In this document: positions 11,454-47,697 of the stretch, one piece after another
Position numbering within the stretch: position 1 is the stretch's first letter
Layout of the letters: each line of letters starts with the position of its first letter
Assembly: GCA_001023575.1 (NCBI GenBank)
Contig: CP011489.1
Span: forward strand, 2,045,001-2,109,000
DNA from: Actinobacteria bacterium IMCC26256
GTDB taxonomy: Bacteria > Actinomycetota > Acidimicrobiia > IMCC26256
DNA length: 64,000 bases
Direction: 5' to 3'
Translations under genes and position numbers: made by a program
The notes under the pieces: generated by a model
What the model was told of the DNA's origin: nothing
Databases searched by the model: none
Seen by the model: only the letters and a program-made list of their open reading frames with translations

Positions 11454-12347
11454 TCATGAACCGAGTAAAGCCCGAGCGAGGACATCCGTGCCGAAGCCCG
11501 TAAGGATGGCGAGATATAGGAGCCCGGTAGCGGCCATAACCGCTGAATACGACCTCTCGCGAAGGGCTAACCATGTAACACCAATCAATACACCGGTTGA
11601 GGCTGCCGAGAGTGCCCACATCCACGCGAGTATTCCGCCATACCCATCATCGACCGATCCCGAGAGAACGGAGACCATCCCAATGGGCCAGAGCAGCCCG
11701 ATTACTTCTAGCACCCAAATAGGGGCGCTTATTTTGACTAGCTCCTCAATAGGGGCGCGCGGTAAGCCGGGCTGTGTGAGATACCAATGCCCGAGAAGCA
11801 TCGCATCAGTTAGTGCGCCTAGGAATGCTGCCCCCATAACGAGTCGATAAGCGCTCTGTATCGCTGGCCCCCCGAGAGTCACCGACTCAGAAACCAGGGC
11901 AATCAATCCAAATGCAGGTGCGATCAAATCCAATAACGGATTGAACTCTCGCGCCTCCTTTAGTCCGGTTGCTTCTGGGCCCTCAGCACCGGATGCTCGG
12001 GCAACCTTCCGGCTCTCTCCAAGCATTGCGTCTACCCGCTCAGTTTTAGCAACCTTGCGCTCTTTTGCAACGCTAACCCCAGCTGCGCGATGAGCGATGC
12101 TCGACGCGAGTGCATAGAGCGCAGCAAGCATCGCTAGAGCCGATGCGGAGAGGGCGATTATGCGCGCTGTACCGGACCCGCCACTAGCGATACTGGCCCA
12201 GATCGCTCCACCAAGCATTGCTGCACCGAGGCTACGCAGTAACCATCCGTACCCAAGGCTCACGAGACGCCCTCGCGTGGTTATCCATAAAAGGGCGAGG
12301 ATTCCAATCCCCCACTCCATAAGGACACTCGCCAAATCAAGTTTCAC
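11454..12347 (-). CDS. Multi-pass membrane protein of unknown function
   Basis: A 297-residue integral membrane protein with seven or eight predicted hydrophobic segments and one charged cytosolic loop (about residues 88-135, rich in Lys, Arg and Glu, containing KERKVAKTERVD). A GHWYLTQPGLP segment in the second half is the most motif-like stretch. I do not recognise the family. It overlaps the LipB-LipA gene by 4 bp (ATGA), so it is cotranslated with lipoate synthesis, but no catalytic residues point to a role there. It closes the minus-strand operon that begins at 16832. Confidence 0.7.
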   Translation of the reverse strand: MKLDLASVLMEWGIGILALLWITTRGRLVSLGYGWLLRSLGAAMLGGAIWASIASGGSGTARIIALSASALAMLAALYALASSIAHRAAGVSVAKERKVAKTERVDAMLGESRKVARASGAEGPEATGLKEAREFNPLLDLIAPAFGLIALVSESVTLGGPAIQSAYRLVMGAAFLGALTDAMLLGHWYLTQPGLPRAPIEELVKISAPIWVLEVIGLLWPIGMVSVLSGSVDDGYGGILAWMWALSAASTGVLIGVTWLALRERSYSAVMAATGLLYLAILTGFGTDVLARALLGS

Positions 12348-14053
12348 CTAGTTAGACCCGTCTCCAACAATGCGGGAGATGCTGCCGCCTCAGCTGAACT
12401 ACGCGCGTGATACGAAGAACGCACAAGTGGCCCAGACTCAACATGGTTTATCCCTGCTGCCTCGCCTATACGAGCAACCTCTGCGAACTCCTCGGGGCTC
12501 CACCAGCGCACAACGGGTAGGTGCTGCTCCGAGGGCCGAAGATACTGCCCAACCGTAACAATCTTCACGCCGACGGCAGCAAGATCAGTGAGGGCACCGC
12601 TTACCTCGTCGAGCGTCTCACCGAGACCGAGCATTATCCCCGACTTTGTAACGTGCCCGGCCGCGTTCGCGCGGGCAAGCAACGCTAACGAGCGTGCATA
12701 ACCCGCGGATGGCCTAACGGCGCGCTGCAGTCGCGCAACGGTCTCAATGTTGTGATTCACAACATCGGGGTTCTCATTCAAAATCAAATCTAAAGAATCC
12801 AAATCGCCCCGCAGATCGCTTATTAGTACCTCAGTACGCGTCTCTGGCGAGGCTGAGCGAATTGCATTGACAGTTGCTGCAACATGTGCAGCGCCGCCAT
12901 CATCGAGATCGTCTCGTGCAACCATGGTCAAGACAGCATGTTTGAGACCCATACGCACCACTGCACTAGCGACTCGCTCTGGCTCATCGGCCTCCGGGGC
13001 GCTCGGGAGCCGAGTATCTATGAGACAGAAACCGCAGGCACGTGTACAGCGTTCGCCGAGAACCATGAAGGTCGCTGTTCCATCGGCCCAGCACTCATAA
13101 ATATTCGGGCAGCCGGCGCTCTCGCAGACAGTATGTAGATCAAGTTCACGCACCAAGCGTTTCAAGCCTCGATACTCGGCACCTAGATCTGCTTTTACTC
13201 TCATCCACTCTGGGCGCCTAAAAGTTGGATCCGCCACTGGTACCTCTACAGATGCAGCCTGGAGGCGACTAACTAATCGAACCGGGACCCCTGCCTCAGC
13301 CGACTGCTCCTCAATGCTCCTTCGACGTTCATCGCTCTGCAATACCAACGGCTCGCGCCAAGCCACGCTCTGGTCATCGACTTCATACACATCAAACTCT
13401 TGAGTAAACGAAGATACAAATGCCTCGGCGACAATCTCCATAAGACTCTTAGTGCTCTCGGTGCTACCTGAAGTAGCTCCAGCAGGGCCATCGAGATCGG
13501 AGAGAACTTTGGATAGTGACGTCACCCCGCGATCTGTAATTCCACACGGGACTATGTGGTCAAACATCGAGAGGTCTGTATCGACATTAATGGCGACTCC
13601 GTGGCGAGTACGTCGGCCCTCGACCTTGACCCCCACTGCGCATACCTTCGCTCCGCCGATCCAAACGCCAGGGTATTCAGGGTCTGTATAAGCATCAAAG
13701 CCGATAGAAGCAAGCGAATCCAGAACTACTTGCTCTAGTTGACGAACGTATGCCACCGAATCAACAAGCCCACCTCGCCAAATCGGGAGGTCGATAATTG
13801 GGTAGATGACTAACTGCCCTGGTCCGTGATAGGTCACATCACCACCACGGTCGACGCTGCGAAGCACAGCACCTACCGATTCAGGCTCCACCAGAACATT
13901 CTGGTCATCTCCACGGCGGCCAAGAGTGTAGGTATGGGGATGCTCTAACAGTAGGAGGTAGTTGCCTGATCGAGAGTGAAGCGAACGTGCTAGTGCATCC
14001 GCCTCGTCATAAGAGACTCGCCCTAACCAACGCACATTGAGGCGTTCAATCAT
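12344..14053 (-). CDS. lipBA: Octanoyltransferase-lipoyl synthase fusion (LipB-LipA)
   Basis: One 569-residue frame carries both enzymes of de novo lipoate synthesis. Residues 1-220 are LipB: HPHTYTLGRRG, DRGGDVTYHGPGQLV, GGAK with catalytic Lys136 and PCGITDRGVTSL with catalytic Cys170; it moves octanoate from ACP to a lipoyl domain. Residues about 265-569 are LipA, a radical-SAM enzyme inserting two sulfurs: auxiliary cluster Cys310, Cys315, Cys321 (CESAGCPNIYEC), SAM cluster Cys336, Cys340, Cys343 (CTRACGFC), and C-terminal RSSYHA with the Ser cluster ligand. A linker (about 220-265) joins them. No stop or restart lies between, so this is a true fusion unless the assembly has an error. It overlaps the E2 gene, its likely substrate, by 4 bp. 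Confidence 0.95.
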   Translation of the reverse strand: MIERLNVRWLGRVSYDEADALARSLHSRSGNYLLLLEHPHTYTLGRRGDDQNVLVEPESVGAVLRSVDRGGDVTYHGPGQLVIYPIIDLPIWRGGLVDSVAYVRQLEQVVLDSLASIGFDAYTDPEYPGVWIGGAKVCAVGVKVEGRRTRHGVAINVDTDLSMFDHIVPCGITDRGVTSLSKVLSDLDGPAGATSGSTESTKSLMEIVAEAFVSSFTQEFDVYEVDDQSVAWREPLVLQSDERRRSIEEQSAEAGVPVRLVSRLQAASVEVPVADPTFRRPEWMRVKADLGAEYRGLKRLVRELDLHTVCESAGCPNIYECWADGTATFMVLGERCTRACGFCLIDTRLPSAPEADEPERVASAVVRMGLKHAVLTMVARDDLDDGGAAHVAATVNAIRSASPETRTEVLISDLRGDLDSLDLILNENPDVVNHNIETVARLQRAVRPSAGYARSLALLARANAAGHVTKSGIMLGLGETLDEVSGALTDLAAVGVKIVTVGQYLRPSEQHLPVVRWWSPEEFAEVARIGEAAGINHVESGPLVRSSYHARSSAEAAASPALLETGLTR

Positions 14054-21710: not shown

Positions 21711-22616
21711 ATGAAGGTATTAGTAACTGGATCACTCGGCTTTGTAGGCCCTTACCTGACATCTCACCTTGCGTCATCAGGTGATGAAGTAATCGGTCTT
21801 GATAGAGCGGGCCCAGAGGCATTCGATATCACTGACGCTGCAATGGTGAGCGAGCACTTCATGAGCGCGTCACCTGAAATCGTCTACCACTTAGCTGCAC
21901 TTAGCCATGTCGGAGAATCTTGGTCAGCGCCAGAGGTGCAGTTCCGTGTCAACGCTGAGGGCACCCTCAACGTTCTCGCCGCATGCGCGTCACTTGGGGT
22001 GCGCAGAGTTGTTGTCATTGGCTCCTCGGAGGAGTACGGAACTGTTGATGCGTCGACCCAGCTCACAGATGAATCCACCCCGCTTAGACCGGTAACCCCT
22101 TACGGCGCAGCTAAGGCTGCAGCAGAGATACTGGCGCTGCAGATGGAGCGAGCAACCGATCTCGAGGTTGTCTGCGTGCGTCCATTCCCCCATACCGGGC
22201 CTGGCCAAACTGAGCGATTCTTAGTACCAGCGCTCGCCGCTCGCATAGCGCAGGCCGAACGCGATGGAGGCACTGAGGTCGTTATGGGCTCGCGTCATCC
22301 GATGCGCGACCTCTCCGATGTGCGTGATGTTGTACGCGCTTACCGACTGCTCGGGCTCAGAGGAGAGAGTGGGCGCGCATATAACGTCTGCTCAGGGTTA
22401 AGCACCTCAGTGGGCTCCATTGCAGACATGCTCGCCGCTGCGTCGACGAGCGAAATCACTTTCGTTACCGACCCGGCACTCGTGCGCGCGATCGAACCTC
22501 CACCGCTTATTGGTGACTCTCAGTTGCTTCAAGAGCACACCGGATGGGAGCCCGAGTTCACCCTCTCAGAGACTCTTAGTGATGTTCTCGCTACAAAAAG
22601 GTCTGCTGCTCTGTAA
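21711..22616 (+). CDS. SDR-family sugar-nucleotide dehydratase/reductase (RMD-like)
   Basis: An extended short-chain dehydrogenase of 301 residues. It shows GSLGFVGPYL at the N-terminus, HLAALSHVGESW, the catalytic Ser region GSSEEYG, the YGAAK Tyr/Lys pair and RPFPHTGPGQ, the last close to GDP-6-deoxy-D-mannose reductases (RMD) that make GDP-D-rhamnose. GDP-mannose 4,6-dehydratase is the main alternative; the shorter length and HTGPGQ favour RMD. Product identity is an inference. It ends the flippase-glycosyltransferase operon, and its 3' end overlaps the convergent hydrolase gene by 26 bp. Confidence 0.8.
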   Translation: MKVLVTGSLGFVGPYLTSHLASSGDEVIGLDRAGPEAFDITDAAMVSEHFMSASPEIVYHLAALSHVGESWSAPEVQFRVNAEGTLNVLAACASLGVRRVVVIGSSEEYGTVDASTQLTDESTPLRPVTPYGAAKAAAEILALQMERATDLEVVCVRPFPHTGPGQTERFLVPALAARIAQAERDGGTEVVMGSRHPMRDLSDVRDVVRAYRLLGLRGESGRAYNVCSGLSTSVGSIADMLAAASTSEITFVTDPALVRAIEPPPLIGDSQLLQEHTGWEPEFTLSETLSDVLATKRSAAL

Positions 22617-23418
22617 CTAGTTCCGAGGGTTCGATCGGAGCCGCTTCTAAGAGTGGACCTCCTTGACGATCAAGCCAACCGAGCAGGGTTGCCACTGCCC
22701 GAGGATCATGGCGGAGTCTGTGCCCAGCATGAAAGACAAACCGAATATCAGCCGAGCCATGCGCCTCAGAGAGTTCAATAGCATCGGTAGGGGCCACGAC
22801 AGTGTCATCAGATCCATGAAGGATCAACAGTGGCCGGTCTCCAAGTTTTGAGGCCGCTGCCAACGGTGCGAACTCTTTGATCTCTCTCGTCCAACTCGCT
22901 ACATCACTCGGGGCATCTGCGCTTCGGAAAACACCCATACGGCGTGCGTGAGTAAGGAAGCGTGCTGGATCGCGTAGCCAGTCGTTCAGATTTGAGTGCG
23001 CCGCAATAGTCGCGACTCCACGCACACGCGAATCATCTGCCGCGCAGCAGATGGAGATGGACCCCCCAAACCCTGCACCAATTAGCCATATCTCGCTCAC
23101 GTCTGGGCGCGCTGCTACTTGATCTATTGCAGCGCGCAAGTCGGCCATCCAGCCAGAGATAGAAAAATCTCCATCCGAGCCTCCAGTTCCACGAAAATTA
23201 AAGGTCAATACGTGGCAGCCCACTTCCTTTGCAATCCGATCCGCGAGACCAGGGAATGTCAATCCCGACGCGATACGACCGCGTGGTGGTTGTGGAAATC
23301 CGTGTGACAAAACGATTCCTGGGACTCGTCGCGCTCCGGCAGGGTGAGCCCAATGAGCGGCAAGACGAATTGTCTCTGCAGCGCTATCGCCATTCGTGAC
23401 CTCTATATGGTCGTCCAC
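22591..23418 (-). CDS. Alpha/beta hydrolase-fold protein lacking the nucleophile serine
   Basis: A 275-residue alpha/beta-hydrolase fold. Visible are the oxyanion segment LSHGFPQPPRG, FNFRGTGGSDG, the nucleophile elbow, LILHGSDDTVV with the acid residue, and FHAGHRLRHDP with the His. The elbow reads GAGFGG (residues 114-119), so the normal GxSxG serine is Gly116; the codon is GGG, two changes from any serine codon. Acid and base are kept. It may be a non-catalytic or unusual member. It lies 78 bp downstream of two small genes on the same strand. Substrate unknown. Confidence 0.75.
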   Translation of the reverse strand: MDDHIEVTNGDSAAETIRLAAHWAHPAGARRVPGIVLSHGFPQPPRGRIASGLTFPGLADRIAKEVGCHVLTFNFRGTGGSDGDFSISGWMADLRAAIDQVAARPDVSEIWLIGAGFGGSISICCAADDSRVRGVATIAAHSNLNDWLRDPARFLTHARRMGVFRSADAPSDVASWTREIKEFAPLAAASKLGDRPLLILHGSDDTVVAPTDAIELSEAHGSADIRFVFHAGHRLRHDPRAVATLLGWLDRQGGPLLEAAPIEPSELVTEQQTFL

Positions 23419-23496
23419 TCAATCGGCCCCTTCAGCATACTTAATTCGTATCGCTTAGCACCACGACCAACAGCCCTTGGTCGTGCCTATGAGAAG

Positions 23497-23721
23497 TTAG
23501 GCGTTCTCTGCGTCTTGGGATTCGCGAATACTTTTATGCGGCTTGTACCCACGGTTGCGCGCTTCGTTGAGGGTATCGGGACCAAAGCAAATGAATTTCT
23601 CTGACTCCATCAGCTCATCGATGATTTCTTTATCAAGGCTAGGGAGATCAAGGTCATAAACAATCTGGGAACGCTTATCTCCAACAAACTGATTCTCTTC
23701 AAAACGTATTGGTCGGCTCAT
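23497..23721 (-). CDS. Small protein of unknown function
   Basis: A 74-residue acidic protein (begins MSRPIRFEENQFVGDKRSQ; contains YDLDLPSLDKEIIDELMES). I do not recognise it. Protein-like composition, lack of membrane segments and its place 51 bp behind the gene at 23773 in the same direction argue that it is real. A GTG at 23772, immediately after the upstream stop, would add 17 residues (MQGESRLALLLSLGFYA); the ATG at 23721 is preferred because the added stretch looks like translated spacer. Confidence 0.6.
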   Translation of the reverse strand: MSRPIRFEENQFVGDKRSQIVYDLDLPSLDKEIIDELMESEKFICFGPDTLNEARNRGYKPHKSIRESQDAENA

Positions 23722-23772
23722 GGCATAGAACCCTAGCGAGAGGAGCAGCGCAAGGCGCGACTCGCCCTGCAC

Positions 23773-46584: not shown

Positions 46585-47697
46585 ATGGAGAATCAATCAA
46601 GCCCTGCAGCAGAGTCCCCGCGAGTAGAGGACTCCGATTCCGCCCCCATCGTGCTTAGCGATTTGGATCGCGACCTATTAAACGCCCTCCAGTGGGATTT
46701 CCCAATAGTGACGAGACCATTCGCCGCCATTGCTGAACGCTTAGGCGTCGAGGAGTCAGTGGTCCTTGAGCGTGTCAACGCAGTAAAAGAGATCGGCGTG
46801 CTCCGCCAGATGTCTGCCATTTTTGATACGCGCGCCCTCGGATACCAGTCAGCGCTCATCGCTGCACGAGTGGCTCCGGAGCACATCGACGCAGCGGCAG
46901 CAATTATTAACGAGCACCCCGGTGTAAGCCATAACTACAAGCGCAATCACTCCTACAACCTTTGGTACACGCTCGCGACTCCTCCTGGTGAGGATTTCGA
47001 CGCCCATGTAGAGACGCTTCATCAAACAAGCGGGTCACTAGTAACACGAAAACTGCCGACACTCGTCCTCTACAAAATCGGCGTCAAGCTCGATATGACG
47101 GGTAAGACCGCCGCAAATGCAAAAGCAGAAGTACTGGCACACGAGAAGCCAGAGCGTCGCGCGGATATGCCGGCCCCTGTTCTCTCAGCTCTCGAGATGA
47201 CTGCAATCTCGGTGGTCCAGGCAGACCTACCAGTTGTTGAGAGGCCATTCGCCGCACAGGCCGAGGTCATCGGCTGCACGGAGGACGAACTCCTAGAACT
47301 TCTTGCCTCATTCTTAGAGCGCAAATTGATGCGGAGATTTGCTGCGGTCATGAATCACAGATCAGCAGGTTTCAAGGCCAATGCAATGGGTGTATGGGCT
47401 GTGCCAGAGGACCGTCTTGAAGAGATCGGGCCACAGATGGCGGGATTTGCAGCAGTTAGTCATTGCTACCGCCGCCCTACATATGAAGACTGGCCATACA
47501 CGGTATTCACAATGGTGCATGGTCGCAACGCTCGAGACTGTGAAGCCACCATTGAGGCAATCCGCGATGAGACCGGCGTCGATGAGCACGCTCTTCTCTG
47601 GTCAATCAAGGAATACAAGAAAGTCCGAATTAAATACTTCACTGACGACTGGTCCGACTGGACAGCGAAGAACCTCTCCACCTCAAACAAAAGCTGA
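46585..47697 (+). CDS. Fused two-domain siroheme decarboxylase-like protein (AhbA/AhbB, NirDL type)
   Basis: A 370-residue protein made of two Lrp/AsnC-like halves. Residues about 23-185 match AhbA: LSDLDRDLLNALQWDFPIV, RPFAAIAERLGVEESVVLER, GYQSALIAARV and GVSHNYKRNHSYNLWYTL. Residues about 200-355 match AhbB: ERPFAAQAEVIGCTEDEL, RRFAAVMNHRSAGFKANAM, GVWAVPEDRL and VSHCYRRPTYEDWPYTVFTM. In the family this pair decarboxylates siroheme to didecarboxysiroheme for the alternative heme pathway or heme d1. ATG with a GGGAGGA ribosome site 7 bases upstream. No ahbC, ahbD or nir gene is in the window, and the neighbours do not explain it. It could instead be an Lrp-like regulator, but the Tyr/His blocks argue for the enzyme. 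Confidence 0.82.
   Translation: MENQSSPAAESPRVEDSDSAPIVLSDLDRDLLNALQWDFPIVTRPFAAIAERLGVEESVVLERVNAVKEIGVLRQMSAIFDTRALGYQSALIAARVAPEHIDAAAAIINEHPGVSHNYKRNHSYNLWYTLATPPGEDFDAHVETLHQTSGSLVTRKLPTLVLYKIGVKLDMTGKTAANAKAEVLAHEKPERRADMPAPVLSALEMTAISVVQADLPVVERPFAAQAEVIGCTEDELLELLASFLERKLMRRFAAVMNHRSAGFKANAMGVWAVPEDRLEEIGPQMAGFAAVSHCYRRPTYEDWPYTVFTMVHGRNARDCEATIEAIRDETGVDEHALLWSIKEYKKVRIKYFTDDWSDWTAKNLSTSNKS

Follow-up and report, generated by a model that had tools for sequence, protein, structure and literature searches.

Heme is required for respiration, and three routes for its synthesis have been described. In the Ahb pathway of archaea and sulfate reducers, siroheme is decarboxylated by AhbAB and coproheme is a later intermediate, as described in PMC3942049. 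For the step catalyzed by AhbC, it has been proposed that the acetate arms leave as radicals before gaining an electron and a proton (PMC12505453). An aerobic branch occurs in Haloferax volcanii, in which, according to PMC5746218, an Ahb front end including AhbC is combined with a ChdC-type enzyme (PitA/ChdC) that is required in air. Because this archaeon has both, the combination of an Ahb front end with a ChdC ending is already known. The Gram-positive coproporphyrin pathway also ends with ChdC (HemQ). The fusion of AhbA and AhbB is, as such, not new either: the Hydrogenobacter thermophilus NirDL protein (PDB 4ch7) is fused, and fused ahbAB is reported in many archaea (PMC11237513). For Desulfovibrio desulfuricans, PMC4145669 names AhbA His115 (an iron ligand) and Arg119, as well as AhbB His98, Tyr100, Arg102 and Lys152; the AhbB R102A variant is inactive and Lys152 lies close to the ring A acetate.

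The window analyzed here is a stretch of 64,000 nucleotides from the genome of Actinobacteria bacterium IMCC26256 (contig CP011489.1, positions 2,045,001 to 2,109,000), and it contains one open reading frame (ORF) with both AhbA- and AhbB-like parts:

46585-47697, plus strand: ahbAB fusion, putative siroheme decarboxylase of 370 amino acids, ATG start (NCBIfam and PDB matches)
46666-47097, plus strand: AhbA-like half, residues 28-171, with HTH-like and ligand-binding domains (N half, AhbA 195.4 bits)
46930-46944, plus strand: HXYXR motif of the A half, H116-N-Y118-K-R120 (alignment to 4czd_A)
47206-47637, plus strand: AhbB-like half, residues 208-351 (C half, AhbB 186.5 bits)
47461-47475, plus strand: HXYXR motif of the B half, H293-C-Y295-R-R297 (alignment to 4czd_B)
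47620-47622, plus strand: Lys346, equivalent of AhbB Lys152 (alignment to 4czd_B)

The whole protein scores 260.9 bits with the NCBIfam model of AhbA, which has a cut-off of 140, and 256 bits with that of AhbB, which has one of 125, and it has two stretches each of the Pfam families AsnC_trans_reg2 (171.9 bits) and NirdL-like_HTH (112.7 bits). When the halves were scanned alone, the N half exceeded the cut-off for AhbA (195.4/140) and not that for AhbB (73.2 bits), and the C half that for AhbB (186.5/125) and not that for AhbA (69.5 bits), in agreement with the initial annotation, which had recognized an AhbA- and an AhbB-like block. The Hydrogenobacter NirD-like protein (4ch7/4czc) shares the fused architecture and matches end to end, over residues 31-364 (E 1e-77), and the D. 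desulfuricans AhbA and AhbB chains (4czd/4un1) match residues 2-171 and 201-353. The order, AhbA-like and then AhbB-like, follows from these family scans and PDB matches. Placement of the halves among DNA-binding Lrp proteins, the outcome that the initial annotation had named as speaking against a siroheme decarboxylase, did not occur: the best Lrp regulator model on the N half was LrpA, at 33.9 bits against a cut-off of 250, and none matched the C half at E 0.01. A comparison with the AhbAB structures, also proposed at that stage, located all six residues named in D. desulfuricans, as H116, R120, H293, Y295, R297 and K346 (alignments to the 4czd chains). In an alignment of 78 full-length fused proteins (the window protein plus 77 loci; 88 loci were examined, 87 matched and 10 were dropped for low coverage), H116 and R120 are kept in 77 rows, the remaining row being a gap, and H293, Y295, R297 and K346 in all 78. 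Judged by its sequence, the 370-residue ORF encodes a siroheme decarboxylase in which AhbA and AhbB are fused.

Close copies, with 95% and 98% identity, are present in two metagenome bins, and most of the relatives are bins that carry the label Acidimicrobiia or Actinomycetota. Copies with 68% and 98% identity occur in two bins under the title 'Bifidobacterium breve' (loci L040 and L053), and these titles look wrong. A plasmid search with AhbAB returned 25 records, all below 60% identity and, where annotated, named AsnC/Lrp regulators.

The genome of IMCC26256 is a single contig of 2,461,858 bases, 99.93% complete, and was searched for the genes that the initial annotation had pointed to, i.e. 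hemQ, siroheme synthase, ahbC, ahbD and nirJ. The first two functions are represented: there is a single ChdC (PF06778, 169.4 bits; best NCBIfam model 240.2 bits, below its cut-off of 253), and siroheme synthesis genes are present (cobA, 282.7 bits, cut-off 185; cysG N-terminal domain, i.e. SirC, 112.8 bits, cut-off 62.3). An operon with the order sirC-hemA-hemC-cobA/hemD-hemB-hemL lacks hemE, with Rieske and cytochrome c genes close by, and profile searches of the complete genome found neither HemE nor HemH. AhbC, AhbD and NirJ are not among its 11 radical-SAM ORFs (MoaA, HemW, MiaB, RimO, BioB, LipB-LipA, RlmN, FbiC, TIGR03960, CUAEP and TIGR03279-like), the best match of the AhbC model being 36.1 bits, at the place of moaA, against a cut-off of 650 bits. 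The absence of ahbC and ahbD was the real surprise. Two of these ORFs have features of their own. The LipB-LipA protein is a fusion of 569 amino acids (LipB at residues 3-185, LipA at 274-557) encoded on the minus strand of the window at 12347-14053 (locus L010), and the CUAEP-type protein (L134:11979-13361, plus strand; 543 bits, cut-off 500), which was considered as an AhbC substitute, adjoins an ATP-grasp-like ORF.

Each of 197 genomes of the class was then searched for AhbAB, HemE, HemH and ChdC, with HemE and HemH also searched in named control genomes. AhbAB was found in 27 genomes, which span 19 genera and 10 families by their labels: 25 of the 28 members of the order of IMCC26256 (itself counted) and two genomes from other orders. 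None of the 27 has HemE or HemH, whereas the other 170 have HemE in 128 cases (Fisher p 9e-15) and HemH in 120 (p 3e-13), and ChdC is present in 25 of the 27 as compared with 83 of the 170 (108 in total; p 1e-5); these statistics are uncorrected for kinship, which inflates them, members of a single class not being independent samples. The general statement in the initial annotation that actinobacteria use the coproporphyrin route fails for this clade, which shares with that route the final ChdC and differs from it in lacking HemE and HemH. A route that acquires its iron at the siroheme stage and derives coproheme from siroheme fits this pattern, in which HemE and HemH are both lost and ChdC is retained. 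Within the order of IMCC26256, G035 and G076 lack AhbAB and have both HemE and HemH, and in G094, a fragmented assembly of 660 contigs, neither AhbAB nor HemE was found. No ChdC was found in the AhbAB genomes G023 and G091. Loss of HemE alone is no proof of a siroheme route, since in 42 of the class genomes AhbAB and HemE are both missing, and the presence of ChdC is not specific to AhbAB, since it also occurs in the 83 genomes without it. The HemQ neighborhoods are uninformative, because the downstream neighbors in AhbAB genomes are also found in the HemE-positive G076.

Five genomes of about 1 Mb from family f14 (G005, G024, G032, G036 and G040) have HemH, with HemE, ChdC and AhbAB not found. 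Genomes of family f28 such as G071, G110, G144 and G190 have only a lower-score URO-D protein (E ~1e-57) and no HemH, and the protein counted there as HemE may be a different member of the URO-D family.

We ran the AhbC model on 42 genomes, i.e. the 27 AhbAB genomes of the class and 15 from outside it. Full-length AhbC-like proteins occur in G006 (391 bits), G091 (321), G201 (492), G208 (455) and G210 (769), the last being the sole genome of the 42 above the 650-bit cut-off; related radical-SAM proteins score 205 bits in G209 and 219 bits in G211, and the remaining genomes gave weak partial matches (~20 to 62 bits) or none. A full-length AhbC is absent from 25 of the 27 AhbAB class genomes (all except G006 and G091) and from ten outside genomes, namely Brevibacillus fulvus, three Thaumarchaeota, five marine genomes and one Rubrobacteraceae. 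These organisms therefore have the first enzyme of the pathway and no known second one. The clade resembles the archaeal and sulfate-reducer pathway in its AhbAB and departs from it in lacking AhbC in 25 of 27 genomes and, in IMCC26256, AhbD, as well as in its ChdC ending. The Haloferax branch shares the Ahb front end and a ChdC-type last step under oxygen and differs in keeping the radical-SAM AhbC (and AhbD) (PMC5746218).

In G006 and G091, AhbD-like and AhbC-like genes are adjacent (L131:7926-10303 and L132:6735-8983), and the surroundings of the pair in G091 include NirK-like ORFs and ORFs resembling anaerobic ribonucleotide reductase, which suggests an anaerobic variant of the route. G091 has neither ChdC nor the aldo/keto reductase described below. 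Its listed contamination is 6%, and the contig with the AhbC/AhbD-like pair has a G+C content (0.41) similar to that of the AhbAB contig (0.45).

A candidate for the missing step was found outside the window:

C1:1884045-1885049 (= L167:9045-10049), strand not given: aldo/keto reductase of IMCC26256 (homology search)

This gene and DUF1802 (PF08819) were examined in 63 genomes, comprising the 27 with AhbAB, three AhbAB-negative members of the order, 18 further class genomes with HemE, and 15 genomes that do not belong to the class. At E <= 1e-40, the reductase is present in 26 of the 27 AhbAB genomes, IMCC26256 included and G091 being the exception, in all ten AhbC-less genomes outside the class, and in none of 20 HemE-positive controls (20 of the 128 in the class). 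This threshold separates cleanly, as the weakest reductase match has an E-value of 1.7e-58 and the up to 11 candidates that the negatives gave at first look are excluded. The reductase also occurs in the planctomycetes G201 and G208, which carry AhbC-like proteins too, and in the fragmented G094, and it is absent from G209, G210 and G211.

Neighborhood clustering of 62 loci with longest-ORF calls was marred by shadow ORFs at high G+C, and a codon-position score was applied from then on. AhbAB is next to sirC and hemA at three loci from Thaumarchaeota (and to hemB in the two where the locus reaches that far; hemA and hemB were named by eye), close to an operon of overlapping genes in the order ChdC-DUF1802-aldo/keto reductase. 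The gene immediately after the reductase in the Rubrobacteraceae genome is a ChdC (PF06778, 189.3 bits; NCBIfam 147.5 bits, cut-off 235), and this copy of the reductase had no plasmid match at E 1e-50. Neighboring reductase and ChdC genes are therefore found in both an archaeon and a bacterium, in differing arrangements. In Brevibacillus, AhbAB is located within a hemA-X-sirC-C-cobA/hemD-B-L operon (genes named by eye). The reductase of IMCC26256 adjoins alcohol dehydrogenase and TetR genes and is unlinked to heme genes. Trees of AhbAB and of the reductase for 23 genomes (two rows trimmed in the latter) recovered the same main clades, with deeper forks partly unresolved: 14 Acidimicrobiia form one clade (support 100/100 and 97/95), G006 groups with G012 (97/91 and 100/98), and four marine rows group together (100/100 and 100/99). 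At what we take to be the catalytic tetrad positions of the aldo/keto reductase family, Tyr, Lys and His are kept, and the fourth position is Asp, or Glu in Thaumarchaeota. The protein belongs to the same Pfam family as the YdjG-like and IolS-like reductases, whose tetrad it apparently keeps, and is distant from them, with the nearest NCBIfam equivalog at 92.6 bits against a cut-off of 550 and the nearest PDB chain at E 9e-23. Predicted structures of the thaumarchaeal reductase and DUF1802 (three rows each) had mean pLDDT values of 46.5 and 35.4, too poor to use.

DUF1802 was the first candidate for a general AhbC substitute. It was found in 22 of the 27 AhbAB genomes, in nine of the ten AhbC-less outsiders and in G201, and in none of 21 AhbAB-negative class genomes tested. 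This role was ruled out by five AhbAB genomes in which DUF1802 was not found and which all have the reductase (IMCC26256, G003, G027, G064 and G204). In G085, the DUF1802 gene lies between homologs of two window ORFs (22594-23418 and 23500-23772), and the corresponding place in IMCC26256 is empty:

23419-23499, no strand: empty syntenic slot of 81 bases

As only these 81 bases are left, DUF1802 is missing from that place, and its absence from the genome means that it is not essential in IMCC26256. In most relatives it may help the step that replaces AhbC.

With HemE and HemH absent and ChdC in 25 of 27 genomes, the most likely sequence of intermediates is siroheme, didecarboxysiroheme (DDSH), coproheme and heme, ending with ChdC, and it is very probable that heme in the AhbAB clade, a group of actinobacteria from soil and fresh water, is made through siroheme. 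Uroporphyrinogen III would be supplied by HemA, HemL, HemB, HemC and HemD, and converted to sirohydrochlorin by CobA and SirC, with iron insertion giving siroheme. AhbAB would remove the carboxyls from the acetate side chains at C12 and C18, yielding DDSH, a non-radical enzyme, for which the reductase is the candidate, would strip off the acetate side chains at C2 and C7, leaving coproheme, and ChdC would use peroxide to convert coproheme to heme b. The chemistry of the reductase is a guess, in which NADP(H) hydride transfer at C3/C8 would be followed by departure of the acetate arm; on paper, removal of the arms and formation of the porphyrin double bonds need no net oxidant. We know of no aldo/keto reductase that cleaves such C-C bonds. 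We infer the flux through the siroheme route and the activity of each of its enzymes. Co-occurrence and gene order lead us to lean towards the reductase as the replacement for AhbC, the oxygen-sensitive radical enzyme, and we consider it likely that an active fused AhbAB catalyzes the first committed reaction of a heme route that is probably the only one in the cell, with the reductase filling the AhbC step. The chances are also slightly in favor of this reductase subfamily completing an oxygen-tolerant AhbAB-reductase-ChdC pathway in aerobes, i.e. an order of Acidimicrobiia, Brevibacillus, Thaumarchaeota, Rubrobacteraceae and small marine bacteria.

The main competing explanation retains AhbAB and ChdC as proposed and assigns the AhbC step to ChdC itself, DUF1802 or an unseen enzyme, with the reductase in another function linked to the pathway, e.g. 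the control of lactone or ketone by-products. Isobacteriochlorins do form lactones in air, according to PMC3942049 and PMC12505453, and DUF1802 both tracks AhbAB and, in Thaumarchaeota, is the gene that separates ChdC from the reductase. We nevertheless regard this explanation as unlikely, albeit deserving of attention, since the five reductase-bearing genomes without DUF1802 leave it no general role as a substitute, and ChdC, found in 83 genomes without AhbAB, is not specific.

Of the three roles that the initial annotation had offered for the fused protein, an alternative heme route is the one with strong support. A transcription regulator of the AsnC/Lrp kind that senses heme or siroheme, with enzyme activity lost, would account for the HTH-like domain (PF22451, PF13404), and a relative, NirL, is reported to bind DNA (PMC4145669). 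The six residues implicated in substrate binding or catalysis are nevertheless kept across the aligned sequences, the Lrp models score far below cut-off, and a mere sensor would not account for AhbAB tracking the loss of HemE and HemH, which makes such a loss of activity very improbable; regulation as an added role is possible, with residues and replacement pattern favoring an enzyme. Similarly improbable is that AhbAB stands in for HemE on uroporphyrinogen or uroporphyrin, to be followed by the coproporphyrin route. HemE is indeed absent, the genomes do have the ChdC with which that route ends, and the Hydrogenobacter structure is reported to bind iron-uroporphyrin III, but the ferrochelatase that the coproporphyrin route needs is missing from all 27 AhbAB genomes and siroheme already carries iron. 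The third role on offer, synthesis of heme d1 for a cytochrome cd1 nitrite reductase, draws on the nearest solved relative being NirD-like, a protein (4ch7) named for heme d1 synthesis; because none of the 11 radical-SAM ORFs in the complete IMCC26256 genome is NirJ, it can be given almost no credence.

With heme made through siroheme by AhbAB, the reductase and ChdC, an entire order of bacteria that look aerobic would seem to rely on the archaeal and sulfate-reducer route without its two radical-SAM enzymes. If confirmed, the reductase would be, to our knowledge, the first enzyme named for the AhbC step that does not work by radicals. The gap in the heme pathway of these Thaumarchaeota and others would then be filled, and automatic annotation could be seen to mislabel such organisms as incapable of heme synthesis. 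Among titles and abstract openings of the open-access papers searched, we found no paper on an aldo/keto reductase in a siroheme-based heme pathway, on AhbAB-dependent heme synthesis in Acidimicrobiia or on an AhbC-less route, which is weak evidence of novelty. Such a pathway would have been overlooked because each of its parts resembles a regulator or a generic oxidoreductase. As a three-gene system, it would be open to direct testing, and a control genome, Deinobacterium chartae, hints at the same gene set in a named organism, with matches to the AhbAB HTH family (score relative to cut-off not given), ChdC and DUF1802 and no match for HemE or HemH.
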